A stretch of DNA of 64,000 nucleotides from Fischerella sp. PCC 9431 (GTDB taxonomy: Bacteria > Cyanobacteriota > Cyanobacteriia > Cyanobacteriales > Nostocaceae). The first letter of the stretch is position 1. Each line of letters opens with the position of its first letter. The notes beneath the pieces were generated by a model. The model saw nothing but the letters and a program-made list of their open reading frames with translations. It was not told the origin of the DNA and did no database searches. Shown piece after piece: positions 20,187-62,536 of the stretch. The position numbers and the translations under genes are program-made. Location: contig NZ_KE650771.1 in NCBI RefSeq assembly GCF_000447295.1, positions 126,184 through 190,183 on the forward strand, in the 5' to 3' direction.

Positions 20187-20873
20187 ATGAACAAAGATTT
20201 ATCAGATAATAGACTGAAAATTTTGTTGATAGATGGTCATGAAATGTGTCTGAGTGGAGTATTTCGCTTACTACACTCACAGTACCCACATGCAAAAATT
20301 GTGACAGCTAAAACTGCTGAAAATGTTTTCAATCAAATTTCGCTCCTAGAACCTGACATAGTTGTGATGGATATTCTTTTACCAGAAAAACAAGGAGTAA
20401 TCGCACGCATTAGTACGGGTATCCAATTACTCCAACAGATGCTTAATATGTATCCTAAGCTTAATGTTGTAGTTCAAAGCGAACATGTAAAAAAACTAGT
20501 GCGAATCAAATCTACAATTGACACACACAAAGGAGGTTTTACAATAGCTGATAAAAGTCTTTCTAGTAAAGAAATGCTCATCAGGGTCAGTTGGTCTTTA
20601 CAAGGACTAACCCATATCAAAGATATTCAGTCTATCTACTGCGAATTAGAAATTAAACCAGAATGCTTAAGACTGCTGACTCTAGCTTTTCAAGAAGGGT
20701 TACAAGATAAAGCGATCGCGGAAAATATCTGTGTATCAGAACGTATGGTGCGTCACTACTGGGATAAACTACAAGAAGCTTTAGAAATTGATTGTCATGA
20801 ATTAAAAAACCAAGGCAAAAATATTAGAATAATAACTCAAATTCGGGCAAGGGAAGCTGGCTTAATAGATTGA
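20187..20873 (+). CDS. NarL/FixJ-like response regulator
   Basis: 228 residues. Receiver domain about 11-145, with phosphoacceptor Asp62 in VVMDILLP and the conserved-Lys region ADKSLSSKEM. The usual acidic pair is altered to DG (Asp16, Gly17). The C-terminal helix-turn-helix is DKAIAENICVSERMVRHYW. An insertion between the phosphoacceptor and helix 3 (PEKQGVIARISTG) is shared with the paralogue at 54902-55579, so both belong to one cyanobacterial subfamily. No kinase lies adjacent here. The outer-membrane transporter gene downstream is a possible but unproved target. Confidence 0.85.
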   Translation: MNKDLSDNRLKILLIDGHEMCLSGVFRLLHSQYPHAKIVTAKTAENVFNQISLLEPDIVVMDILLPEKQGVIARISTGIQLLQQMLNMYPKLNVVVQSEHVKKLVRIKSTIDTHKGGFTIADKSLSSKEMLIRVSWSLQGLTHIKDIQSIYCELEIKPECLRLLTLAFQEGLQDKAIAENICVSERMVRHYWDKLQEALEIDCHELKNQGKNIRIITQIRAREAGLID

Positions 20874-21552: not shown

Positions 21553-23349
21553 ATGTCCAGTAAAATTCAATTCCAATTAAATATGTATAAATACTGGTGT
21601 TGGTTGAGTGTCGTAATAATATTTAGTGCAACCCTAATCCAGCCACTAAAAGCCCAAGTTATTAAAACAACGCAAATACCAAACGACAAAATAGCTCAAG
21701 TTCCAAATACTATACCTGACCCTGGTAAACCTCCCTCAAATCAGCCTTTACCAGAACAGTCACCACTACCACCTCCAGAGGAACTATTACAACCCCCCGA
21801 TACAACAACTCCAACTCCATCACAACCAATCCCAAGCGGTGAAGTTCCTCCAACTATTGTAGTGAGAAAATTTAAAATCACAGGTAGTACGGTTTTTAGT
21901 CCTGAAGATTTTGACAAAATTACTAAACCTTTTACAAATCGCCCAATTACCTTTGCACAATTGTTCGAGCTTCGTTCAGAAATTACTCAACTTTATGTAA
22001 ACAAAGGATACATTACATCTGGGGCTTATATTCCCCCGCAAAAATTGCAGAATGGGGTAGTAGAAATTAAGGTTGTTGAGGGCGAACTAGAAGATATAAA
22101 AGTGACAGGCGCTCAAAAACTTAACCCGAAATATTTGCAAAGTCGTCTGGCTATTGCTACCAAAAAACCATTAAATAGCGATCGCTTATTAGAAGCATTG
22201 CAGGTATTACAACTTAATCCCTTAATTGAAAGCTTATCAGCAGAACTGTCTGCCGGCTCTCGTCCTGGTCAAAGTTTACTGGAAGTAAAAATCACAGAAG
22301 CCAATACTTTTGATGTCGGATTGATTTTGGATAATGGGCGATCGCCAGCTGTTGGCACTTTTCGTCGGCAAATACAAGTAAACGAAGCCAATCTGTTCGG
22401 ATGGGGCGATAGCATTAGTGCTGTTTATGCCAATACAGATGGGAGTAATGCTCTTGACTTAAATTATACACTGCCCATCAACCCCCACAATGGCACTTTG
22501 TCATTTAGCTATGGTTTTTCTGACAATCAAGTTATAGAAAGACCCTTTGATGTCCTTGACATTCAATCCAATTCTAATTATTACGAACTATCACTGCGTC
22601 AGCCCATACTACAAAAACCCACTCAAGAATTTATCTTAGGCATAACAGCAAGTCATCGTCGCAGTAAAGCCACATTTTTGGATGGTGAACTTCCTTTTCC
22701 AGGGACAGGTGCAGACGATGAGGGAAGAACACGAGTCACAGCTGTGCGCTTTTTTCAAGAATGGGTTTCTCGTGATACCCAGCAAGTATTTGCGATGCGT
22801 TCTCAATTAAGTGTCGGACTTGATCTTTTTGACGCTACCATCAATAAAACCTTCCCCGATAGTCGTTTTGTCGCTTGGAGAGGACAAGCACAGTGGGTGC
22901 GTTTATTGGGTCGTAACACTTTGTTAGTGCTACGAGGTGATGTACAACTGGCAGATAGACCACTCGTTCCCTTTGAACAAATTGGGATCGGAGGCTTAGA
23001 TTCCGTGCGCGGCTATCGTCAAGATGCTTTATTGACAGATAACGGTATTTTCGCATCTGCGGAAGTGCGAATTCCCGTGGTTCGCTTCTCAAGACCCAAC
23101 AACTTTTTGCAGGTGACTCCCTTTGTGGATTTTGGTAATGGTTGGAATGATTCTGGTAGATCGGACTTTGAAGTTGACCTCGATAGCAATACCTTGCTAT
23201 CTGTAGGATTAGGACTGCGCCTAGAACTCGAAGACAATCTCACCGCCCGCCTCAATTGGGGTATTCCTTTAATTTCAGTGAGTTCCCAGGATAAAGACTC
23301 TTTGCAAGAAAACGGTTTGTACTTTTCCATCATTGTCAATCCTTTTTGA
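21553..23349 (+). CDS. Two-partner secretion outer-membrane transporter (ShlB/FhaC/TpsB family)
   Basis: 598 residues. Signal peptide to about residue 35, a Pro-rich linker (about 55-98), POTRA domains (VVRKFKITGSTVF from about 101, then FVEGELEDIKVTGA-like text near 176), and a 16-strand-type Omp85 barrel ending in Phe. The VRGYRQ motif at 485-488 is the conserved L6 loop tip. The family exports large TpsA proteins with haemagglutinin-type repeats across the outer membrane. No TpsA gene lies in the window, so the partner must be elsewhere. It follows a NarL-type regulator. Confidence 0.92.
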   Translation: MSSKIQFQLNMYKYWCWLSVVIIFSATLIQPLKAQVIKTTQIPNDKIAQVPNTIPDPGKPPSNQPLPEQSPLPPPEELLQPPDTTTPTPSQPIPSGEVPPTIVVRKFKITGSTVFSPEDFDKITKPFTNRPITFAQLFELRSEITQLYVNKGYITSGAYIPPQKLQNGVVEIKVVEGELEDIKVTGAQKLNPKYLQSRLAIATKKPLNSDRLLEALQVLQLNPLIESLSAELSAGSRPGQSLLEVKITEANTFDVGLILDNGRSPAVGTFRRQIQVNEANLFGWGDSISAVYANTDGSNALDLNYTLPINPHNGTLSFSYGFSDNQVIERPFDVLDIQSNSNYYELSLRQPILQKPTQEFILGITASHRRSKATFLDGELPFPGTGADDEGRTRVTAVRFFQEWVSRDTQQVFAMRSQLSVGLDLFDATINKTFPDSRFVAWRGQAQWVRLLGRNTLLVLRGDVQLADRPLVPFEQIGIGGLDSVRGYRQDALLTDNGIFASAEVRIPVVRFSRPNNFLQVTPFVDFGNGWNDSGRSDFEVDLDSNTLLSVGLGLRLELEDNLTARLNWGIPLISVSSQDKDSLQENGLYFSIIVNPF

Positions 23350-52172: not shown

Positions 52173-52670
52173 CTAATTTATATTTTGGACAGGTCTATTG
52201 CGTGAAGGATGATTAAAATCACACAAAATTTCTACCTGCAATAAATGGTTTTTATCTAAGGCTAAAGTGGGTAAAGTTTCTGGGACAGATACTTTCATAA
52301 TCCCTGGTGAACTTCGTAACTGAGATTTATGAGCTAGTTTAAGTTGCTTATTACTACTTAACTCATAAGTAGACAACTCTAGCAATACTCTTTGGTGGTC
52401 AGGTATAAACCAAGCGAAGGTGGGATGACTTGAAGTAGTTTGTCCAATGTTTGTAACCGGAGCAAGCAGGGTTAAAGAATCAGCATCACTAGCTTTGCAT
52501 GTTCCTCTGATTCCCGATGATTCTGTATAACCTTTCGGTGGTTTTTGATCCGGGGGGGGTTTATATGCAGCTAAAGTTACCTGAGTAAACGATAAAGGAA
52601 TGCTCAAAGCACAAATTTTTAAAATCTTAACATTAAAAACTTTGTGCAAGAGCCACTGTGTGCAAGTCAT
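52173..52670 (-). CDS. DUF928-family secreted protein, short C-terminus
   Basis: 165 residues from ATG 52670 with GAGGAAAA upstream; the alternative GTG 52694 lacks a good site. Signal peptide to about residue 35 (IPLSFTQVTLAA). DUF928 core: RGTCKASDADSLTLLAPV, GQTTSSHPTFAWFIPD, then the HLLQVEILCDFNHPSRN block. Family members usually continue well beyond this block; here the protein stops soon after, so it may be truncated. Last gene of a leftward signalling set with the CHASE2 kinase; periplasmic, role unknown. Confidence 0.8.
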   Translation of the reverse strand: MTCTQWLLHKVFNVKILKICALSIPLSFTQVTLAAYKPPPDQKPPKGYTESSGIRGTCKASDADSLTLLAPVTNIGQTTSSHPTFAWFIPDHQRVLLELSTYELSSNKQLKLAHKSQLRSSPGIMKVSVPETLPTLALDKNHLLQVEILCDFNHPSRNRPVQNIN

Positions 52671-52955
52671 TATCTTTTCCTCTTGGCATTGCACTAAAAA
52701 AATATACTAATTAGTAGATAGTAGCTGGTTAGTGATTGGTAATTGCTAACTATTAATTGCGATTAACCATAGAGCATTAGCAACTTGTCATACCTCATTA
52801 TTTATTACCATTACTTGCAAGCAAGCATTTTGTTAACCACGCTACAGAATCCTTTTTTATTGTATTACTAGTAAATGACTAAATTCATTTCAGATTTGAG
52901 TAATTTGTATTGCAGAAAAATACATAAAAAATGTTTTGGTTCTTAATAAAAACAT

Positions 52956-54842
52956 TTACCAAAAGCCTAACTTTGGTATAGGCCAAGACAATTCACAAAG
53001 AGTACCGCGAGGAGAAAGAGGCGATCGCGTAAATTTTCCTCTAAGTTGTTTAGCTAAAATTCTAAATTGTTGTGTCCCCCGACCTTCTTTAGAAGAAATG
53101 CTACCTAAGCCATTATCGATAATTTTCAGAGTGTACCATCCTTCATTTTGGGTACAACTGACCTCTAAGCGAGTTACACCTGTGGCGTGTTTACCAACAT
53201 TACACAAAGCTTCTTCTAAAAATCTACACAGTCCCCGTTTTTGCTCAATACTTAAGTGATAGTCATCAATGGGATCAAATGTCACTATTTTAATTCTAAG
53301 TGTATTAAAGTAGGAAAACTCTCGCTGCAATGTATGGTCATACACTTGATAGAGAACTGTATGAATAGGGTCTTGTAAATTTAACAGCAAACCTTTTCCT
53401 AAATAAAGACTTCTATCTTGAGTTAGAGGTTCTCTTTGTAAAAATTCATAGAGGCCCCGTAATTCATAGTTTAATTTTTCTAAATCTTTTTCAAGTATTG
53501 GTAGCAATTCTGCTGATGATAAATCTTGTTCGCGAATTCTCTTTAATGCTTTAGCCAGAGTTTGCAATGGGCCATTGTGAATTGTTTCAAAAGTACGTTC
53601 AATTAGCGCTTGACGGGCTTCAATTCTCGAACGCAATGCTTGATCATATTGATATAAAGCCGTCATTGCAAAACCATTTAAATTTAAAACGAGAATTGCT
53701 GGTATTAGTGGAACCCACAAACCCCAAAACAACAAAAGTAAATAACTAACAACTGTTAGAATGGTGCTAGCAATCACAATAGTAACCAAATTTCGCCACG
53801 GGGACTTAGTAACTCTAGCGAAAGCAATTCCTAAAATCCCCCAGCTAATGATCCATGCATATTCCCAGTAGTCTGTCCAAGTATGCAAAAGTGGTCTAGA
53901 ATCTAGGACAGCACTAATGATTGCAGAACTTGCATGTGCTTGAAGTTCCACGCCATAAATGCGTCCCTCTGCTGGTTGTATGGATGTGACAGCAGAAGTA
54001 GTGATAAAGTCTTTGACACTAGGGGCTGTAATACCAATAATAACAATGCGATCGCGTATCCACTGCGGCTGATATTTCCCGTTTTTAATATCATTAAGAG
54101 ATAAAATTCTAAATCTTTTTGAACCACTACGAAAATTAAGCAAAATTTGTAATCCACCTGCATCGGTTCTGATATATCCCCCAGAATTTGGCAAAAATCG
54201 GGGTAATTCAATATTTCCGAATCTCATAGTTTCAGGATCACGAATACCATTTTCTAAGGTATAAGCTTTCTTAGCTAAATAAATTTTTGCTAAACAAACA
54301 GATAAAGAAAACTTGTATTCTTTATTAGTTGGTGTTGCCAATAAACTACGTCGTAATTTACCATCAGCATCAATAATTTGATCTGCAAAACCAACTTGTT
54401 CTGGAGATAAGGTTGGTGGAGGAGAAAATATTTCGGGTAATACTTTTTCAATCGCAACTAAATTTTTAATATCTCTATATGTACTTATTAGTTCTGCATG
54501 ACCAGGTTCAACAGGTAAATCTTTGACTATATCAAGACCAATGACTCTAGGTGCAAGAGAATTTAGTTTTCTCAATAGTTCTGCAATTTCTTTGTCTGGT
54601 ATGGGATATGTTCCAATACTGTGGATATCTTTTTCATTAATTCCGACAATGATAATACGTTCGTCAATCGCTTCAGCAGGACGTATACGCAGAAAATTAT
54701 CAAAGGCTAACCACTCTAGAGATTGCATATAACCACTTAAACGAGTAATTATTACCAGTAATATGACTATTATTCCTGGTAATAAACCTACACGCCAAAT
54801 GATTATTTGTTCTTTAATAATTCTCCACAGTCCAGGCTGCAT
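52956..54842 (-). CDS. CHASE2-domain sensor histidine kinase (NarL-partner type)
   Basis: 628 residues. TM1 about 17-36; extracytoplasmic CHASE2 domain (about 40-320) with IIIVGINEKDIHSIG and RIVIIGITAPSVKDF; three closely spaced membrane helices (about 328-400). Then a dimerisation helix with FETIHNGPLQTL (His422) and an ATPase domain with EEALCNVGKHATG (N-box), DNGLGS and GRGTQQF. These features fit kinases that phosphorylate NarL/LuxR-type regulators. The cognate regulator is encoded 59 bp upstream on the same strand. Confidence 0.9.
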   Translation of the reverse strand: MQPGLWRIIKEQIIIWRVGLLPGIIVILLVIITRLSGYMQSLEWLAFDNFLRIRPAEAIDERIIIVGINEKDIHSIGTYPIPDKEIAELLRKLNSLAPRVIGLDIVKDLPVEPGHAELISTYRDIKNLVAIEKVLPEIFSPPPTLSPEQVGFADQIIDADGKLRRSLLATPTNKEYKFSLSVCLAKIYLAKKAYTLENGIRDPETMRFGNIELPRFLPNSGGYIRTDAGGLQILLNFRSGSKRFRILSLNDIKNGKYQPQWIRDRIVIIGITAPSVKDFITTSAVTSIQPAEGRIYGVELQAHASSAIISAVLDSRPLLHTWTDYWEYAWIISWGILGIAFARVTKSPWRNLVTIVIASTILTVVSYLLLLFWGLWVPLIPAILVLNLNGFAMTALYQYDQALRSRIEARQALIERTFETIHNGPLQTLAKALKRIREQDLSSAELLPILEKDLEKLNYELRGLYEFLQREPLTQDRSLYLGKGLLLNLQDPIHTVLYQVYDHTLQREFSYFNTLRIKIVTFDPIDDYHLSIEQKRGLCRFLEEALCNVGKHATGVTRLEVSCTQNEGWYTLKIIDNGLGSISSKEGRGTQQFRILAKQLRGKFTRSPLSPRGTLCELSWPIPKLGFW

Positions 54843-54901: not shown

Positions 54902-55579
54902 TTAATCAATTAATCCTTCTTCTCTAGCTCGCATTTCTGTTTGAATTCGCATATTTTTTCCATCTTCGGGATAAACATCTAAAGCATCTTGCAGCTTACT
55001 CCAATAATGACGTACCATGCGTTCGCCCACACACATTCGCTCCGCGATCGTCTTATCTGTTAATCCTTCTTCAAATGCGAGATTTAACACCTTTAACCAT
55101 TCTGGTTTTACTTCTAATCCATAATGAACACCTTTAATATCTTTTGTATGAGTTAATCCCTGTAATGCCCAATCTACTCTAGTTAACATTTCTTGGCTAG
55201 AAAGACTTTTATCTGCGACTGTAAAACCTCCTTTATGAATATCAATATCAGGTCTGATTCGGACTAATGTTCTGACATGAGCGCTTTGGACTACTATGTT
55301 TAAATTCGTATGGTTTTTCATTAAGTTTCTCAGTAATTGTACACCTGTATCTGGTCGTGCCATTTTTCCTAGACTCTCTGGTAGAGAAAGATCCATAACG
55401 ACTAGATCAGGTTGCAGATTCGCTACTTGAGAAAGTGCTTCTTGAACTGTGGCGGCTGTGATAAACTCAGCATCGACATATTTTTTCTGCAATACTTCTA
55501 TAGTTCCACTTAATACTGATTCATGGTCATCTATTACTAATATTTTTAGTAATGCTTGTTTTGTTAACGCTTGTGTCAT
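54902..55579 (-). CDS. NarL/FixJ-like response regulator
   Basis: 225 residues. Receiver with the intact acidic pair Asp17-Asp18, phosphoacceptor Asp63 (VVMDLSLPE) and ADKSLSSQEM region. Helix-turn-helix DKTIAERMCVGERMVRHYW. It shares the inserted segment after the phosphoacceptor and the C-terminal RAREEGLID with the protein at 20187. Upstream gene of the CHASE2 kinase, so the pair forms a two-component system; the targets may include secretion genes of the TpsB type (inference from the paralogue's context). Confidence 0.9.
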   Translation of the reverse strand: MTQALTKQALLKILVIDDHESVLSGTIEVLQKKYVDAEFITAATVQEALSQVANLQPDLVVMDLSLPESLGKMARPDTGVQLLRNLMKNHTNLNIVVQSAHVRTLVRIRPDIDIHKGGFTVADKSLSSQEMLTRVDWALQGLTHTKDIKGVHYGLEVKPEWLKVLNLAFEEGLTDKTIAERMCVGERMVRHYWSKLQDALDVYPEDGKNMRIQTEMRAREEGLID

Positions 55580-55842: not shown

Positions 55843-56550
55843 TTACCAAAATAAGTAGTAAACTAGACTGAGGTTATTACTCAAACAAATACATTTACCT
55901 GATGTTAAAAATCTAAAAGTTTTACAAATGTATTCTTGCTCAGGTAAATTTTTGTAAAATATAAGAGTAGAAATATCAGGATAAGTAATTTGTAGTACAA
56001 GCTTACCGACATTTTCTTGTTGTTGTAGACACATATAAATAGAAATTTGTATCAAAACATCAGGCAAACTAATTCTAAGCAACTCTTCTATAGTCTTTAA
56101 AATAATTAGGCTACGATCTGCTGATTCATATCGCCAAGAATGAGGCATATCAAGATGAAAAGATATGTGAGAATGAGATCTAAACCACGGTTCTAATAGA
56201 TACTGAATTGCTAAAGGTAAATTATCTTGAATGTATACTGGAAATAAGCGATCGCTCAATTGCGCTAAAGATTGATGAAAATTGTTAATTTTTTTTAAAA
56301 TTTCTTGAGTTTGACCTGTTGATAGCCCTAAATCACCTTCTGCTAATATTTCTAAACTACGACGGATAATAAAAGATTCTTGTAAGATATCATCGCGAAT
56401 TTTCTCTGCTTCTAATAACATTTTTAGTGATTGTCTACAAGACCACCATTGCAATGCTTGTTGAGTTTTATAATAATTTTTCACTAACATAGTTAGTGTC
56501 ATAATATAAAAAAATAAAACTGAAATCTGTACAGCAAATGGGTAATTCAC
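55843..56550 (-). CDS. Histidine kinase-like protein without phosphoacceptor His
   Basis: 235 residues. One N-terminal membrane helix (about 5-24), then a helical segment EAEKIRDDILQESFIIRRSLE that aligns with the HisKA_3 dimerisation helix but has Gln where His is expected. The remainder (FHQSLAQLSDRLFP, PLAIQYLLEPWF, TIEELLRISLPD) resembles a small cyanobacterial kinase-related family. N-box and glycine-rich ATP motifs are not visible. It may be an inactive partner or regulator of the adjacent CHASE2 kinase system. First gene in the leftward set. Confidence 0.7.
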   Translation of the reverse strand: MNYPFAVQISVLFFYIMTLTMLVKNYYKTQQALQWWSCRQSLKMLLEAEKIRDDILQESFIIRRSLEILAEGDLGLSTGQTQEILKKINNFHQSLAQLSDRLFPVYIQDNLPLAIQYLLEPWFRSHSHISFHLDMPHSWRYESADRSLIILKTIEELLRISLPDVLIQISIYMCLQQQENVGKLVLQITYPDISTLIFYKNLPEQEYICKTFRFLTSGKCICLSNNLSLVYYLFW

Positions 56551-56864: not shown

Positions 56865-58274
56865 TTATAAATCAGTGATTAACCTAGTCTTTCTCAATAA
56901 GAATTGCAGAGCTGTTTCTTGTTTAGAAATAATATCAGCAGAAGTATTCATTCCAACTTGTAGATTACAGGTATTTTTCTGATTTCCAAAACTGTAACTA
57001 TCAGGTTGAATAGTTGCTTCAAAAGATCCAGCACTAGGATTTGTACTAGTTGCTGCGATCGCATCTGAATTATTTACTGGTGCGATCGTATCTGGAGAAA
57101 CAGCAGTTACAACACCTTGAAGAGTACCATAATCAGGATATGGACAAGCATCAACTCGCATCTGCACTTTTTGACCGATTTCCACCTTTTTAATTTCAGC
57201 CCCAGGAATTATGGCTTTTACGATTAAAGGCGTGTGATGTGGGACAATCTCTGCAACAGGTTCTGAGGGACTTACTACCTGACCAGGATTGCGTAAATTA
57301 AGCTTGAGAATTACACCATCGCTAGTAGCACGAATCACACTATTTTGTATTTGAATTATATTTTTTTGCAGTTCCTGTTGATATTGTTTGATTTGATTTA
57401 CAAGTTCAATTTGTCGTTGAATTAAACTGTTTTTTTCTCTAACTAAACCAGCAATGCTAGATTGACCTTTCGCCTTTTCTTGCGCGACACGTTCCTGAGC
57501 AATTTGCACGTTTGCTTCACTAGGATTAAGAGCAGCTTTCGCTGTTTGAAGGGTTGCTTTAGCTATATCTATAGCTCTTTTTTCAGCATCTACTGCTAAT
57601 TGTGCTTGCTCAACAGCTAATTTTCTCTGCTCATAATCACGTTTTCCGATTGCTCCATACTGTGCTAGTTCTCTATAGCGGTCTCGATCCTGTTTAGCAA
57701 ATTTCAAATCAGCATTGGCTTTTTTTAAATTCGTCTCAGCTTTTTGTAGATTTGCTTCTGCTGATAGTAATTCGCTTTGAGTTTTGATTTGCTCGTTTAG
57801 ATAATCTCGTTTATTATTTTCTAAGTCTGCTTTTGCAGAAATAATTGTTCTAGCTATAATTTCTTTTTCAGCATCGATTTGAATATCTAAAGCTTGAATT
57901 TGGGCTTTAATTTGAGTTAGTTGTAATCTACTTTCTTCAATACTATTTTCTAATTGGCTATTTTTGATATGTAATTCTATATCATCAAGTTTAGCAATGA
58001 TATCTCCTTGTTTAACTATCTGATTTTCCTTAACAAAAATATTTTTAACAGTTCCTTCTATTTCTGGTTGTACAATCCGCACATCTCCCGTAGGACGTAC
58101 AGTTGCAGAAGTCTTGACACTAACATTGTATTTAATATATGAAGCCAGAGCGATCGCTGTACCAAAATTAACAACCAAAAATATCCCCGCCAAAGTTGTC
58201 CAACGACTAACCGGCGGTAGAAACTCATCAGTATTAACCGAAGGAATAAATTTTTGATTATGAGTGTAGAGCAT
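56865..58274 (-). CDS. HlyD-family membrane fusion protein
   Basis: 469 residues. One N-terminal membrane helix (about 26-47), a lipoyl-like half motif VKNIFVKENQIVKQGDIIAKLDD (cited as VKNIFVKENQIVKQGD, about 75-90), a long coiled-coil (about 105-320, rich in Ala, Glu, Lys and Gln), the second lipoyl half VIRATSDGVILKLN, and a C-terminal beta domain. It connects an inner-membrane ABC exporter to an outer-membrane channel. It lies 214 bp downstream of the C39 ABC exporter gene on the same strand and is its probable partner. No TolC-like gene in the window. Confidence 0.92.
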   Translation of the reverse strand: MLYTHNQKFIPSVNTDEFLPPVSRWTTLAGIFLVVNFGTAIALASYIKYNVSVKTSATVRPTGDVRIVQPEIEGTVKNIFVKENQIVKQGDIIAKLDDIELHIKNSQLENSIEESRLQLTQIKAQIQALDIQIDAEKEIIARTIISAKADLENNKRDYLNEQIKTQSELLSAEANLQKAETNLKKANADLKFAKQDRDRYRELAQYGAIGKRDYEQRKLAVEQAQLAVDAEKRAIDIAKATLQTAKAALNPSEANVQIAQERVAQEKAKGQSSIAGLVREKNSLIQRQIELVNQIKQYQQELQKNIIQIQNSVIRATSDGVILKLNLRNPGQVVSPSEPVAEIVPHHTPLIVKAIIPGAEIKKVEIGQKVQMRVDACPYPDYGTLQGVVTAVSPDTIAPVNNSDAIAATSTNPSAGSFEATIQPDSYSFGNQKNTCNLQVGMNTSADIISKQETALQFLLRKTRLITDL

Positions 58275-58340
58275 AATTTTTGATAGTTATTTTATCTTAG
58301 TGTTTAGTTGTATATGATCATTAAAATTTTTATTGGTTAG

Positions 58341-58460
58341 TGATTTAGTCCGCGCAGGTGGTGAGGGGGTCGCAGTCTTGGCGGTTCCCGTCGATTGCGA
58401 ACCCCCGAAACCGGAGGGACTTGGTTTGTGTAGTAGCGAATTATATTCGCCCAAAACTTT
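58341..58460. repeat. GC-rich intergenic repeat with hairpin
   Basis: A GC-rich block in an AT-rich locus between the exporter and adaptor genes. gggggtcgcagtc (58365-58377) pairs with gattgcgaaccccc (58393-58406). The text (gcagtcttgg, gaacccccgaa, gggacttggtttgtgt) looks like a dispersed cyanobacterial repeat. Confidence 0.65.
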
Positions 58461-58488
58461 TCAAACATGCTCTTAAGCAATAACTAAT

Positions 58489-60639
58489 TCAAGGAGTTAA
58501 AAAATCTAAATGTTCTCCTGGAATAGAACTTAACTCTTCTACAGAACCCTGTAGTTTTAACCTACCTTGTTCTAAAAAAACAATCAAATCAGCACGATTA
58601 ATAACTCGCGGACGATGACTAATCAAAATTGTTGTTTTTCCTCGACGATGCTGCAATAAGTTATCTAAAACCTCTGCTTCACTTACAGGGTCTAGTCCAG
58701 CAGTAGACTCGTCTAAAATTAAGATTGATGGGTCGTTGATAATAGCACGTGCTATTGCTAATCTTTGCCGTTGACCACCAGAAATATTTGCACCAAATTC
58801 TCCTAAAACAGTTTGATATTTCTCAGGAAGTTTGCTGATAAATTCATCAGCTTCTGCTATTTGGCAACATTTAACAATCTGCTCAAATGTAACATGAGGC
58901 GCTCCTAAATGGAAATTTTCAACAATAGAACGACTCCAAAAGTGAGCATCTTGCGGAACTAAAACTATCTGATGACGTAAACAATCAAGAGCAAGGTCAT
59001 TTAAGTTATAAATTCCAATACTGATATTGCCAGATTGTAATGGATATAAGCCTGCAATCAATTTAGCAAGAGTGCTTTTACCACAACCAGATTTTCCAAT
59101 AAAAGCAATGACTTTACCACCTGGAATTGTTAAGGAAAAATTTTCTAATAAATCTATCCTACCAGCGTAGTGAAAGTTGACATTAGTACAAGTAATGTCA
59201 GCATCTCCAGGTATTCTAACAAACTGCTTTTTCGCATCTTTATCATCTTCTGGAGTAGCATCAATAACTTCCGTCAGACGTTGAACAGCAGTCTTTGCAC
59301 GAGTATATTCATCTACAAAACCAATAACACTACCAATTAAACCCAGGAAATTACCATTCATAGCATTAAAAGCTAATAGTTGCCCAATACTAAGATGTTC
59401 CTGTGGTTTAATCACCAAATTACCACCAAACCACAACAAAACCACACTGCCAATAGCAGCGACAAAACCTGAAAATGTACTATTGATAATGGCAATTTGA
59501 ATTGTATTTAAAGTCAAGGTTGTCAGGCGGCTAAATCGGCTTTGAAATTCATCCCAAAATTGTGGTGATGCAGTAGTAGTTTTTAGAGTAAGCGCACCTT
59601 TAAAAGTCTCTACTAAAACGCCTTGATTTTCTGCTTCTTGAACTAATAACTCACGAGTTTTATTTCGTAAACTCGGTTGAAATATAACTGTAGAAATTGT
59701 CATTGCTAGAGCAATCACTACAGCCACTGCTGTCAGCTTCCAGCTATAAAATAGCATGAAGCCAAAAGAAATGATAGCAATAAAAAACTGGCTGGGTAAA
59801 CCAACAATAACTTGAGCTACTAATTGATTAATCTGATCTATATCTCGTAAACGACTGACAATTTCTCCGCTACGACGAGCTTCATAGTAAGAAAGAGGTA
59901 AGCGCAGAATTTGTCGCCCAAACTCTAATACTAAACCTAATTGCAAACGCTGGGCAAAATGAGCAATTAAATTAGACTGGACAAATGAAAGACTTGTAGA
60001 AACAAAATGCATCACAACCACAGCGATCGCAACAGTTGTGAGCAACTTTGTATCTCCTCTGACCAACACATCATCAGTTAAAATTTGTAGCAAAAATGGT
60101 GAAGCTAAAGATAGCAGTCCCAAAACTAAGTTTAAAGGTAACGCTTGCGCCAGTATGCCGCGAAAAGCCCAAACACGCCGTAAAAAACGCCAAAAGCCAC
60201 TAATCTCATCGTCTTGTTGAGCAAAAAAGCGAATTTTATCCGGCTGTAATAACAACATCAACCAATCTGTCCAATTATCTACGATATCCTTTTTAGACAG
60301 ATAACGAATGCCTACAGCCGGGTCAGCAATTACATATTTTTGACCCTGCTTGCCATACAAAACAACCCAATGATTTCCTTGCCAGTGAATAATTGCTGGT
60401 AGAGGAGATTCGTTTATTCGGTTTAAAAGTTCTGGTGAAGTTTTAACTGGACGAGCATTAAACCCCAGTGCTTCTGCACCCCGCTTTAAGCCTAATAAAG
60501 TAGTTCCAAATTGTCCAGTACCCACCATTTCACGGATGTGATTGAGAGTAAAATTACGTCCATAATGCCTAGAAATGGTAGCTAAACAAGCGGCTCCACA
60601 GTCTTCTTCACTATGCTGTTTAACAAACTTGTATTTCAT
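58489..60639 (-). CDS. Peptidase-containing ABC exporter (C39 protease-TMD-NBD)
   Basis: 716 residues from ATG 60639; TTG 60654 is a weaker alternative. The C39 peptidase has Cys14 (EEDCGAACL), His90 (GNHWVVL) and Asp106 (ADPAVG). A six-helix membrane domain (about 155-440) follows, then the ATPase with Walker A GKSGCGKST (about 515-523), signature ISGGQRQRLAIARA (about 618) and Walker B ILILDEST (about 640). Such exporters cut double-glycine leaders and export the mature peptide. Four such precursors lie directly upstream on the same strand, and the HlyD adaptor lies downstream. Confidence 0.95.
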   Translation of the reverse strand: MKYKFVKQHSEEDCGAACLATISRHYGRNFTLNHIREMVGTGQFGTTLLGLKRGAEALGFNARPVKTSPELLNRINESPLPAIIHWQGNHWVVLYGKQGQKYVIADPAVGIRYLSKKDIVDNWTDWLMLLLQPDKIRFFAQQDDEISGFWRFLRRVWAFRGILAQALPLNLVLGLLSLASPFLLQILTDDVLVRGDTKLLTTVAIAVVVMHFVSTSLSFVQSNLIAHFAQRLQLGLVLEFGRQILRLPLSYYEARRSGEIVSRLRDIDQINQLVAQVIVGLPSQFFIAIISFGFMLFYSWKLTAVAVVIALAMTISTVIFQPSLRNKTRELLVQEAENQGVLVETFKGALTLKTTTASPQFWDEFQSRFSRLTTLTLNTIQIAIINSTFSGFVAAIGSVVLLWFGGNLVIKPQEHLSIGQLLAFNAMNGNFLGLIGSVIGFVDEYTRAKTAVQRLTEVIDATPEDDKDAKKQFVRIPGDADITCTNVNFHYAGRIDLLENFSLTIPGGKVIAFIGKSGCGKSTLAKLIAGLYPLQSGNISIGIYNLNDLALDCLRHQIVLVPQDAHFWSRSIVENFHLGAPHVTFEQIVKCCQIAEADEFISKLPEKYQTVLGEFGANISGGQRQRLAIARAIINDPSILILDESTAGLDPVSEAEVLDNLLQHRRGKTTILISHRPRVINRADLIVFLEQGRLKLQGSVEELSSIPGEHLDFLTP

Positions 60640-60731
60640 CTGTAGTCCATCCAAAAGATTGAGAACCAGAAGGTTAAATCAATCTGTTTGCTTGTTCATG
60701 AAGTGACTTAGCACTGATGATCATTTACTCG

Positions 60732-61028
60732 TTAAGTAAAGAGATACAAAATCAATCGACGTAGCAGTTCCAGCCCACTTAAACCATACTTACGTCCACG
60801 TAGTGCTTTAAAATTAAAGCCAAAGGTAACTTCTGAAAGTGCATATCCAGTTTGTTGTTTAGATGAAATGTTGTTTCCACCATCTGAGAAATTATTTTCA
60901 TTATTTGCAAAAGTAACAATATCTGTCTTTTTGATCACAAAATCATATAATGAAGATGAACGGCCTCCAGTTGCAATTTCCTGTTCTTTTTCAGATAAAT
61001 CCACTAACAAATCTGAGAAGGGAATCAT
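60732..61028 (-). CDS. Double-glycine leader peptide precursor A
   Basis: 98 residues from ATG 61028, with GAGG upstream. Leader DLLVDLSEKEQEIATGG ends at residue 22. The predicted mature part is 76 residues, starting RSSSLYDF, with a Gly/Asn stretch, FGFNFKALRGRKYG and a hydrophobic C-terminal tail (LELLRRLILYLF). No Cys in the mature part, so no lanthionine or disulfide. Nearest precursor to the C39 exporter (93 bp). A bacteriocin-like or signalling peptide is plausible; activity unknown. Confidence 0.75.
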   Translation of the reverse strand: MIPFSDLLVDLSEKEQEIATGGRSSSLYDFVIKKTDIVTFANNENNFSDGGNNISSKQQTGYALSEVTFGFNFKALRGRKYGLSGLELLRRLILYLFT

Positions 61029-61170
61029 TGATACCTCAAAATTAGTGTCACTGAATTGTTGGAGATGATTGAATAGTCGCCTAATGATAATTTGCAATAA
61101 ACTATGTTTAAATTAATCCTACTAAAACAACCCTTTTTGCTTTCAAAAATTTAAAGCTTGTCTTCTATCC

Positions 61171-61422
61171 CTAGAATAAAATCTTGATAGTTTTAGCCAA
61201 AGCTTCAGTCCCCTGTATTGAATTGCTTGCCTGCTGAAGGTTTTCTTCAGTACTCTCTGTGTCATCTCCTGTATTCGAGCCTCTTAAATATTTATCGAAG
61301 GGGGATCTATAACCATTGTCTGCTGATGTCTGGAGATCGAATATCCCAAAACCCCCCGATATAGTAGCAGCAGTTTCATCTGTTAATTCTTCCAATGTCA
61401 GAGGAATATGTTGTAAACTCAT
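61171..61422 (-). CDS. Double-glycine leader peptide precursor B
   Basis: 83 residues from ATG 61422 (MSLQHIPL), preferred over TTG 61437; GCAGGAC lies upstream. Leader TLEELTDETAATISGG ends at residue 24; the mature part is about 59 residues beginning FGIFDLQTSADNGYRSPFD, acidic in the middle (GDDTESTEENL) and without Cys. The leader retains the hydrophobic and Glu positions expected for C39 recognition. Unrelated core to precursors A, C and D. Confidence 0.75.
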   Translation of the reverse strand: MSLQHIPLTLEELTDETAATISGGFGIFDLQTSADNGYRSPFDKYLRGSNTGDDTESTEENLQQASNSIQGTEALAKTIKILF

Positions 61423-61477
61423 CTTTTTGTCCTGCAAGACTAATAAATACGCTTACTATGGGAAAACTCCAGAGACT

Positions 61478-61985
61478 TACTCCCTTATAGGGATGCTCTA
61501 GAATTTATTGAGTACCAATTTATATTGTTGGTTAAGTTAGTTAACCAACCTTAAAACTCTGCCTAAAAGTAGCGAAGTTTACTCAAAATCCGCATTGAGA
61601 AATTCGTAAGCAGAGGTGTCGATATATTTATTTGTCAAGTCCTTACTGATTACGGAGCCATAAGGACCTGAATGCATTGTCTTACTAAGATTAAAATTTT
61701 GAAACTCAAAATTGGTGTTGTCATACTCAAAAAGATCTACGAGTTGACCACCACCAGATGTAATTTCTTGTTGCTGTTCAGATATCTCTAAAAACAATCC
61801 AATTTCCACTGCCTCAACCTCATTGATAGAGTTTATAAAATTAAAAAATTAGCTAGGGAGGAAAGGAGTTTAGAGACTTACTCCCTTATAGGGATGCTCT
61901 AAAATCTATTTGCTACGGATTTATATTTTTGGTTAAGTTAGTTAACCAACCTTAAAACTCTGCCTAAAAGTGGCGAAGTTTACTC
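61478..61985. repeat. Tandem duplication unit of about 401 bp
   Basis: Text at about 61475-61809 is repeated at about 61867-62225: acttactcccttatagggat, gttaagttagttaac, ctctgcctaaaagt, then the precursor gene itself. Each copy has the hairpin ttggttaa/ttaaccaa downstream of its gene (61533-61553 and 61934-61954). Gene cores are nearly identical and leaders diverge. Confidence 0.9.
61579..61809 (-). CDS. Double-glycine leader peptide precursor C
   Basis: 76 residues if started at GTG 61809; no in-frame ATG lies upstream before a stop, so start choice is uncertain. Leader GLFLEISEQQQEITSGG ends at residue 20. The 56-residue core begins GQLVDLFEYDNTNFEF and ends YEFLNADFE, acidic and aromatic-rich, without Cys. 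It is a tandem duplicate of precursor D, whose core has the same length and only a handful of substitutions. Confidence 0.75.
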   Translation of the reverse strand: MEIGLFLEISEQQQEITSGGGQLVDLFEYDNTNFEFQNFNLSKTMHSGPYGSVISKDLTNKYIDTSAYEFLNADFE

Positions 61986-62225
61986 AAAATCCGCATCGAG
62001 AAATTCGTAAGCAGAGTTAGCGACATATTTATTCGTCAAGTCCTTACTGATTACAGAGCCATAAAGACCTGAAGACATTGTCTTGCTAAGATTAAAATTT
62101 TGGAACTCAAAATTAGTGTTGTCATACTCAAAAAGATCTACGAGTTGACCACCACCAGATGTAATTTCTTGCTGATATTCGGCTACTTCGCTAAACAAAT
62201 TAGATACAAAAATTTCGTGAGACAT
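61980..62225 (-). CDS. Double-glycine leader peptide precursor D
   Basis: 81 residues from ATG 62225, with AAGGAG about 11 bases upstream, the best ribosome-binding site of the four. Leader NLFSEVAEYQQEITSGG ends at residue 25; 56-residue core GQLVDLFEYDNTNF...YEFLDADFE. First gene of the leftward series D-C-B-A-exporter-HlyD, so it probably sits nearest the promoter. The core is strongly acidic at the C-terminus (DADFE), unlike cationic pore-forming bacteriocins. Confidence 0.8.
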   Translation of the reverse strand: MSHEIFVSNLFSEVAEYQQEITSGGGQLVDLFEYDNTNFEFQNFNLSKTMSSGLYGSVISKDLTNKYVANSAYEFLDADFE

Positions 62226-62536
62226 AGTTGCAAAACTCCTTGCTTGTAGTGTTGTTGTACTTGATTGAGAGAATTGAAGTTGATTAGCTTTTTATTAGCT
62301 GAACTTCTTGTTTATTACGATATACGCCTGCTAACATGTCAGTCACTTACACTTTCTGTAAACTTATTTACCTGCTTGAGAAGCATGAATAGCAGAATTA
62401 TACGAGCGCGATTTCTGAAAAGTACATACCGATCAATCAAAGCAAAAACCCAGTTTATGGAAAAACTGGGTTCATTAGAATTAAAAACATTGAAATAAAT
62501 TGGAAAATATTTAAACTAAATCAACTCATTCAAAAA
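62226..62536. other. Promoter-side spacer of the precursor/exporter locus
   Basis: AT-rich; a short inverted repeat aacccagttt/aaactgggtt (about 62449-62472: acccagtttatgg..aaaaactgggt) may terminate the leftward gene at 62537. The plus-strand frame here is a shadow. Confidence 0.5.

Follow-up and report, generated by a model that had tools for sequence, protein, structure and literature searches.

A secreted-peptide locus of Nostocales with a conserved exporter, adjoining two-component genes, a promoter-like element and exchangeable cargo

Clusters encoding small exported peptides are common in cyanobacteria, with 145 reported from 43 strains by Wang et al. 2011 (PMC3140520). Group III clusters of that scheme were counted in Fischerella by Micallef et al. 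2015 (PMC4558948), who also describe numerous short peptides without assignment at clusters of this kind. In the literature we found, as far as the accessible text of these sources goes, EbfG1-4 of Synechococcus elongatus are the only products of cyanobacterial peptide clusters with a tested function; they are secreted by the double-glycine (GG) route and are reported in connection with biofilm matrix and amyloid (PMC4997328, PMC9981879). Here we describe a related locus in a 64,000-nucleotide stretch of Fischerella sp. PCC 9431 (contig NZ_KE650771.1, positions 126,184 to 190,183; hereafter the window), where four GG precursors, D, C, B and A, precede a C39-peptidase ATP-binding cassette (ABC) exporter and an HlyD-type adaptor. 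We report its gene content, its conservation, a promoter-like element ahead of it and the exchange of its peptide cargo among relatives. With confidence that is about evenly balanced, we read it as a two-component-controlled secreted-peptide chassis of Nostocales, whose products would be surface or matrix peptides rather than classical cationic bacteriocins.

The six genes all lie on the minus strand at positions 56865-62225, in the leftward order D, C, B, A, exporter, HlyD that the original prediction, made from the letters alone, had given. The exporter is complete, as claimed there, with Cys14, His90 and Asp106 in place and intact ATPase motifs (Walker A at 515, ISGGQ at 619, Walker B at 639). 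Its Pfam domains are Peptidase_C39, ABC_membrane and ABC_tran, with nothing else above cut-off and no CAP_ED. The leaders are indeed acidic, with a net charge of -4 in each of D, C, B and A, none of the four cores contains Cys, and no modification enzyme is found among the open reading frames (ORFs) between the precursors and HlyD. D and C score above the curated cut-off of 32 bits for NF038167 (NCBIfam "CTB family bacteriocin"), along both leader and core, whereas A reaches 24.5 bits, under that cut-off, and B has no family match in Pfam or NCBIfam scans, NF038167 included. C and D are tandem duplicates, lying in a 300-nt direct repeat (93%) with cores that are 89% identical. The prediction was silent on this duplication, on the CTB family, on the cationic nature of A, and on the two-component genes and the element described below. 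The host belongs with Fischerella and its relatives, the exporter being 96% identical to that of F. muscicola SAG 1427-1, 94% to that of Pelatocladus and 92% to that of F. thermalis PCC 7521; a PHROGs search with D, B and A for phage origin gave no matches.

The comparison across genomes covers the best 80 of 173 named loci with exporter relatives, which with the window make 81 loci. From the 3,897 short ORFs of these loci, a leader profile at 8 bits or more recovered 154 on the exporter strand and none on the opposite strand; it had been seeded from 59 exporter-strand ORFs, so that the strand bias is partly by construction, and it misses B-type leaders. Of the 44 loci whose exporter is at least 76% identical, the window counted, 41 have a GG-leader ORF scoring 5 bits or more upstream of it, which supports the dedicated secreted-peptide system that had been proposed. 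The absence of such peptides near such exporters elsewhere had been named as grounds for rejecting that proposal; they are present, with CTB-type cores at 19 loci and A-type cores at 18 to 21.

These families were drawn from 131 precursor ORFs on the exporter strand, upstream of exporters at least 74% identical, with a leader score of at least 5 and no B-type among them. Two of the 131 lacked a called cleavage site and went unclustered; the A peptide of L107 was added back by hand, and one ORF of L129 was not. The CTB core family comprises 54 peptides at 19 loci, and an unrelated family, FDLN, comprises 19 peptides at 10 loci. The A core family occurs at 18 loci by clustering and at 21 after hand assignment of L107, L121 and L137, the last two having been moved out of families of their own. 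Further cores include a Brasilonema family (8 peptides, 3 loci), smaller families and singletons. No locus of the clustered set holds both A and FDLN. A quick exporter tree with Shimodaira-Hasegawa-like approximate likelihood-ratio (SH-aLRT) support, which keeps 76 of the 81 loci and omits exporters under 65%, requires at least 2 changes between A/CTB and FDLN loci, and 5 for all cargo types. The cargo is swapped at one chassis, which carries either CTB and A peptides or the unrelated FDLN peptides. The exporters of the window and Pelatocladus are 94% identical and their A peptides 76%, and the best CTB matches are just 39-41% identical. When single sequences were searched against 243 genomes of the order, matches to D came from 7 genomes, to B from 2 and to A from 15, the window's genome counted in each. 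Relatives of B are 83% (L107), 38% (L109), 45% (L172) and 35% (G174) identical; the queries for the B searches began at 61419, one codon inside the ATG at 61422.

Downstream of HlyD lie genes for a 235-aa protein, a response regulator (RR225) and a CHASE2 sensor histidine kinase, here called the regulator module, followed by a DUF928 gene. The order downstream of HlyD is kept, with the response regulator, in 34 of the 81 loci (33 named loci and the window); those same 34 have a CHASE2-kinase match, partial in several, and 33 have the 235-aa gene. All 34 sit within one 45-row group of the exporter tree (SH-aLRT 100). Among the genomes of 59 relatives, the 235-aa gene was found in 18; judged by coordinates, it shares a contig with the nearby exporter in 16 of these, sits on a different contig close to contig ends in G128, and has no exporter near it in G017. 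Among CHASE2 kinase orthologues longer than 500 aa, the IHNGP H-box is present in 29/29 and the N-box pattern in 28/29, and a strict DNGxG G-box in just 5/29. The C-terminus of RR225 looks helix-turn-helix-like on reading by eye.

Alignment of the DNA 5' of the first precursors brought out a conserved block headed by ATGTAYTTTTCRGAAAT. A profile built from 14 sequences of ~88 bp, applied upstream of the exporter at a threshold of at least 15 bits, found this element in every one of the 33 module loci that have sufficient DNA there, 13 of which were themselves profile seeds, and in none of 26 module-less loci. The comparison omits 17 of the 76 tree rows, whose flanks are too short; F. muscicola 1427 (L107) is omitted in this way, its contig being cut, and its other contig end (L079) carries the element. 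The weakest scores are 15.7 bits (L139) and 19.3 bits (L112, where the precursor is not recognised). The distance from the start of the best match to the first precursor ORF is 190-207 nt in 25 of the 33 loci; in the remaining 8 the match lies elsewhere or the first precursor ORF is uncertain. The element stands ahead of A/CTB cargo in 25 loci and of FDLN cargo in 9, and is missing at 1 FDLN locus and 3 Brasilonema-type loci.

Within the element lies a 17-bp box, whose exact form has 41 matches in 39 of 217 family genomes, against 1 match for the reversed control. We examined 30 matches, 28 of the 41 plus 2 from a scan of the window genome, a set that includes profile strains and is only partly blind; a GG-leader ORF lies 95-231 nt downstream in 22 of them. 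Of the 8 without one, four represent a single orthologous antisense site by another ABC gene and one is a site at L258, and these look like chance; L275 is cut by a contig end, L267 has a full element with no precursor, and L257 has a partial element. With up to 3 mismatches allowed, the box also recurs in two places: ahead of the 235-aa gene in 9/29 loci, where shuffles predict 0.22, and behind the CHASE2 kinase in 9/28, where they predict 0.28. The other two module gaps have 0/32 and 0/29; the loci in these counts are related and hence non-independent. The window genome's only two zero-mismatch sites both fall within this locus. The retention of the element before both cargo types, the excess of exact boxes over the control and the recurrence of the box in two local gaps argue that the element is functional. 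From the position and recurrence of the box, we infer that RR225 may be the protein that binds it. The features of the region are collected in Table 1.

Table 1. Features of the peptide-export locus and its surroundings, in window coordinates
Feature	Position	Strand	Description
Precursor D	61980..62225	-	81 aa; leader MSHEIFVSNLFSEVAEYQQEITSGG; acidic 56-aa core; NF038167 49.0 bits
Precursor C	61579..61809	-	76 aa; GTG start; tandem duplicate of D; NF038167 55.8 bits
Precursor B	61171..61422	-	83 aa; ATG 61422; distinct leader type (...LTLEELTDETAATISGG); acidic core
Precursor A	60732..61028	-	98 aa; next to exporter; +4 core with basic hydrophobic C-terminal tail
Short-type C39 peptidase ABC exporter	58489..60639	-	716 aa; ATG 60639; orthologues 96-76%
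HlyD-type adaptor	56865..58274	-	469 aa; PF13437
235-aa protein (label HK235)	55843..56550	-	conserved; no recognised domain
Response regulator RR225	54902..55579	-	receiver domain PF00072; 65-94% identical across 33 named loci
CHASE2 sensor histidine kinase	52956..54842	-	628 aa; PF05226 above cut-off; HATPase_c E 0.019, below cut-off
DUF928 protein	52173..52670	-	165 aa; PF06051
Promoter-like element (~88 bp)	62344..62429	-	upstream of D; profile 71.4 bits, window one of 14 seeds
17-bp box	62411..62427	-	ATGTACTTTTCAGAAAT; 8 nt ahead of TATAAT
Second box	52909..52925	-	ATGTATTTTTCTGCAAT; between CHASE2 kinase and DUF928 gene
Terminator-like hairpin	62446..62473	-	between upstream 146-aa gene and D

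We propose that the four precursors would be transcribed from a promoter bearing the conserved element, and that the CHASE2 kinase and RR225 most likely turn this promoter on or off through the 17-bp box. The acidic leaders would be bound by the C39 domain of the exporter and cut after GG, a step we expect because the catalytic residues are intact and from knowledge of the family. The cores would then leave the cell through the exporter, HlyD and a TolC-type channel presumably encoded elsewhere; the best PF02321 matches in the genome, at 3.611 Mb, are unlinked to the locus.

Further support for the nature of the products comes from their cores. Of the 54 CTB cores, 49 carry a motif of the S-G-P-x-G-S type, its centre lying 0.40-0.56 of the way along the core; shuffling yields 1.1 on average and 5 at most. 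The best AlphaFold model of the D core (predicted local distance difference test score, pLDDT, 89.7) is a single hairpin, with strands 4-28 and 31-55 and the turn at this motif; D, and hence its near copy C, is predicted to form a beta-hairpin that turns at the conserved motif. The model of A has a hairpin and a C-terminal helix. Distal CTB cores have a mean charge of -4.4 and A cores of +3.3, and these opposite charges suggest that acidic CTB and cationic A cores may act together. By analogy with EbfG1-4, the acidic D, C and B and the cationic A would probably have a joint extracellular role as surface or matrix peptides.

A broader version would have one exporter, one CHASE2/RR225 switch and one promoter box kept across Nostocales, with cargo swapped wholesale under the same control and products that may be sensed by the CHASE2 kinase itself; in this full form we consider the proposal improbable.

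Several observations weigh against the reading of a two-component-controlled chassis for surface or matrix peptides. On the structural side, the five D models differ, those other than the best having pLDDT values of 67.5-83.3 (67.5-89.7 overall), the A model is weaker (73.5), and AlphaFold can have a tendency towards long hairpins. Matches of the models to solved structures are not significant (best E 7e-2 for A and 4e-3 for D), and the top rows are mostly long-hairpin proteins. The EbfG amyloid hotspot (A-Phi-N-I-Pi) occurs in 0/54 CTB and 0/21 A cores; its loosest form occurs in 5/54 CTB cores (shuffle mean 2.4, max 7) and 5/21 A cores (mean 1.2, max 6). A two-residue hydrophobic alternation, as might accompany amyloid, was not found in CTB cores. 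On the regulatory side, the association of element and module rests on 1-3 independent phylogenetic pairs, and co-occurrence alone is not significant given relatedness. In G246, cargo, exporter and element occur but no regulator adjoins them; in G017 the 235-aa gene and regulator stand where both exporter and element are missing; and G094 retains the element, the regulator and an ORF resembling the CHASE2 kinase at a site that has neither an exporter nor recognisable precursors. Upstream, synteny extends to a 146-aa gene and CobU in some of the loci, which indicates that some of the linkage is an inherited neighbourhood reflecting common descent. The window's own 235-aa gene has no upstream box at up to 3 mismatches, and a sigma-70 scan gives no promoter at the element.

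The alternative that survives best is a bacteriocin (allelopathic) locus, in which the cores, singly or as an acidic/cationic pair, would inhibit related cyanobacteria and cargo exchange would reflect an arms race. Class II bacteriocins are marked by a cationic core and an immunity gene alongside. Here the D, C and B cores are acidic (-6, -6 and -4) and only A, at +4, is cationic; the acidic character that the original prediction gave to the C and D cores is confirmed, and B shares it. The gaps between precursors span 142-170 nt (156 nt between C and B), so that an ordinary immunity gene would not fit, and the class II pairing of cationic core and immunity gene is not found. The turnover of cargo beneath a conserved exporter agrees with an arms race, as do the CTB family name and the group III cluster type with a bacteriocin; these names, however, stem from genome mining, and no demonstration of activity for the family was found in the literature, within the accessible text of the sources. 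A CTB cluster of Nodularia is induced in phosphate limitation and is discussed in terms of allelopathy in the available part of that report (PMC9846622). On balance, we consider a killing function unlikely, if not strongly so.

Peptide signalling would make the locus a feedback circuit, with the CHASE2 kinase sensing a mature core and RR225 acting on the peptide promoter. The kinase and regulator do adjoin the exporter in 34/81 loci, and the box is common to the peptide promoter and the surroundings of the regulator genes. To our knowledge, however, CHASE2 is not a known type of peptide receptor. A specific receptor is also hard to fit with the replacement of the peptides by unrelated cargo while RR225 stays 65-94% identical, and in G017 and G094 RR225 is retained although no exporter adjoins it. 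We regard such a circuit as rather unlikely. The original prediction had held signalling or kin recognition to be as plausible as killing; no finding favours kin recognition specifically.

That the regulator and export genes are neighbours by ancestry alone, with the element an ordinary promoter under another regulator, would accommodate the few independent pairs (1-3), the exceptions G246, G017 and G094, and the synteny with CobU and the 146-aa gene, but it seems doubtful given that the box recurs in two other local gaps beyond shuffles and that exact boxes number 41 against 1 in the control, 22 of the 30 examined preceding a GG-leader ORF.

Other roles for individual parts were considered and set aside. 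The 235-aa protein, to the eye, has the look of a kinase-dimerisation helix, but as a degenerate histidine kinase it finds nothing in Pfam or NCBIfam at E <= 1, and a comparison of profiles between it and the core of the adjacent CHASE2 kinase gives a probability of at most 0.1%; HK235 is a mere label. As the mark of a wide regulon the box fails, a looser pattern with at most 1 mismatch giving 6 sites in the window genome and 3 in the control. As a structured RNA, the element has a 16-sequence consensus fold of -1.39 kcal/mol, with 1 of 6 pairs changed on both sides; given this weak fold and the lack of any Rfam match in 52-64 kb, it is treated as DNA.

Some parts of the system also occur in other arrangements. 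At L223 (G094:C32) the element persists where exporter and precursor are not recognised. L267 (G094:C47) has a second full element, and ~0.9 kb downstream of it is a gene for a membrane-like protein of 208 aa that lacks a GG leader. At L283 (G386) an FDLN-type precursor lies behind the element, and a DUF928 gene, 50% identical to the window's, lies ~1.1 kb from the box: the same parts, differently arranged. On a Coleofasciculus contig (L163, position ~532, minus strand) a 21.9-bit element match lies on the opposite strand, with an exporter merely 71% identical. Elsewhere in the window, at 20187-20873 (+), lies another RR225-family response regulator (58% identical), and downstream of it a gene (21553-23349) that by eye resembles a two-partner-secretion (ShlB-type) outer-membrane transporter. 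The 214-nt gap between exporter and HlyD contains a GC-rich stretch at 58280-58480 (-), CCGGTTTCGGGGGTTCGCAATCGACGGGAACCGCC..., which resembles a small dispersed repeat; this gap is about 10 to 650 nt in orthologous loci. Terminator-like sites across the region number 6, against a shuffle mean of 4.5.

With respect to known systems, the gene make-up resembles group III as described in the available part of Wang et al. 2011 (PMC3140520), with a short-type C39 ABC exporter, HlyD and several short GG precursors. In agreement with that group, no LanM, SurA, S8 peptidase or additional ABC is found among the ORFs at 54.9-64 kb, with Pfam applied to the main ones. The terms 'two-component', 'histidine kinase' and 'regulator' have 0 occurrences in the main text of Wang et al. 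(PMC3140520), and 'response regulator' has 0 in that of Micallef et al. (PMC4558948). Nor do the accessible portions of the two papers describe a conserved element or the exchange of cargo on one chassis, and our searches of the open-licence literature gave no account of the regulator pair, of such an element or of cargo exchange. Relative to the CTB family, D and C are members by score, and A, under the cut-off, represents a cationic partner family with a conserved pattern of its own; B is without a match. A second CTB cluster in the same genome (L229, G000:C1:6462000-6481000, ~6.474 Mb) has seven NF038167 matches, six above cut-off, with a C39 exporter and HlyD near. It differs in its exporter, which is 25-37% identical in pieces, and in its CAP_ED-like proteins, recognised by eye; the 88-bp element was not found there.

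The adjacent kinase and regulator recall peptide-pheromone two-component systems, whose receptors are polytopic proteins of the AgrC/ComD type; the sensor domain here is CHASE2 instead.

The likeness to EbfG1-4 and PteB, four small GG proteins without known domains and the C39 transporter that exports them, lies in several GG proteins adjoining a C39 exporter. The mature EbfG proteins are reported to be without homology to other cyanobacterial proteins (PMC4997328), the hotspot motif is missing from the cores here, and a biofilm role for them would be a candidate one. A dedicated switch and box would offer a handle on when and why these little-understood peptides are made, and CTB and FDLN cargo behind the same promoter could separate a shared role (surface, matrix) from a cargo-specific one (killing, signalling). 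The cluster type (group III) and the CTB family were already known; the conserved putative switch, the element and the exchangeable cargo are new as far as the literature searched goes.

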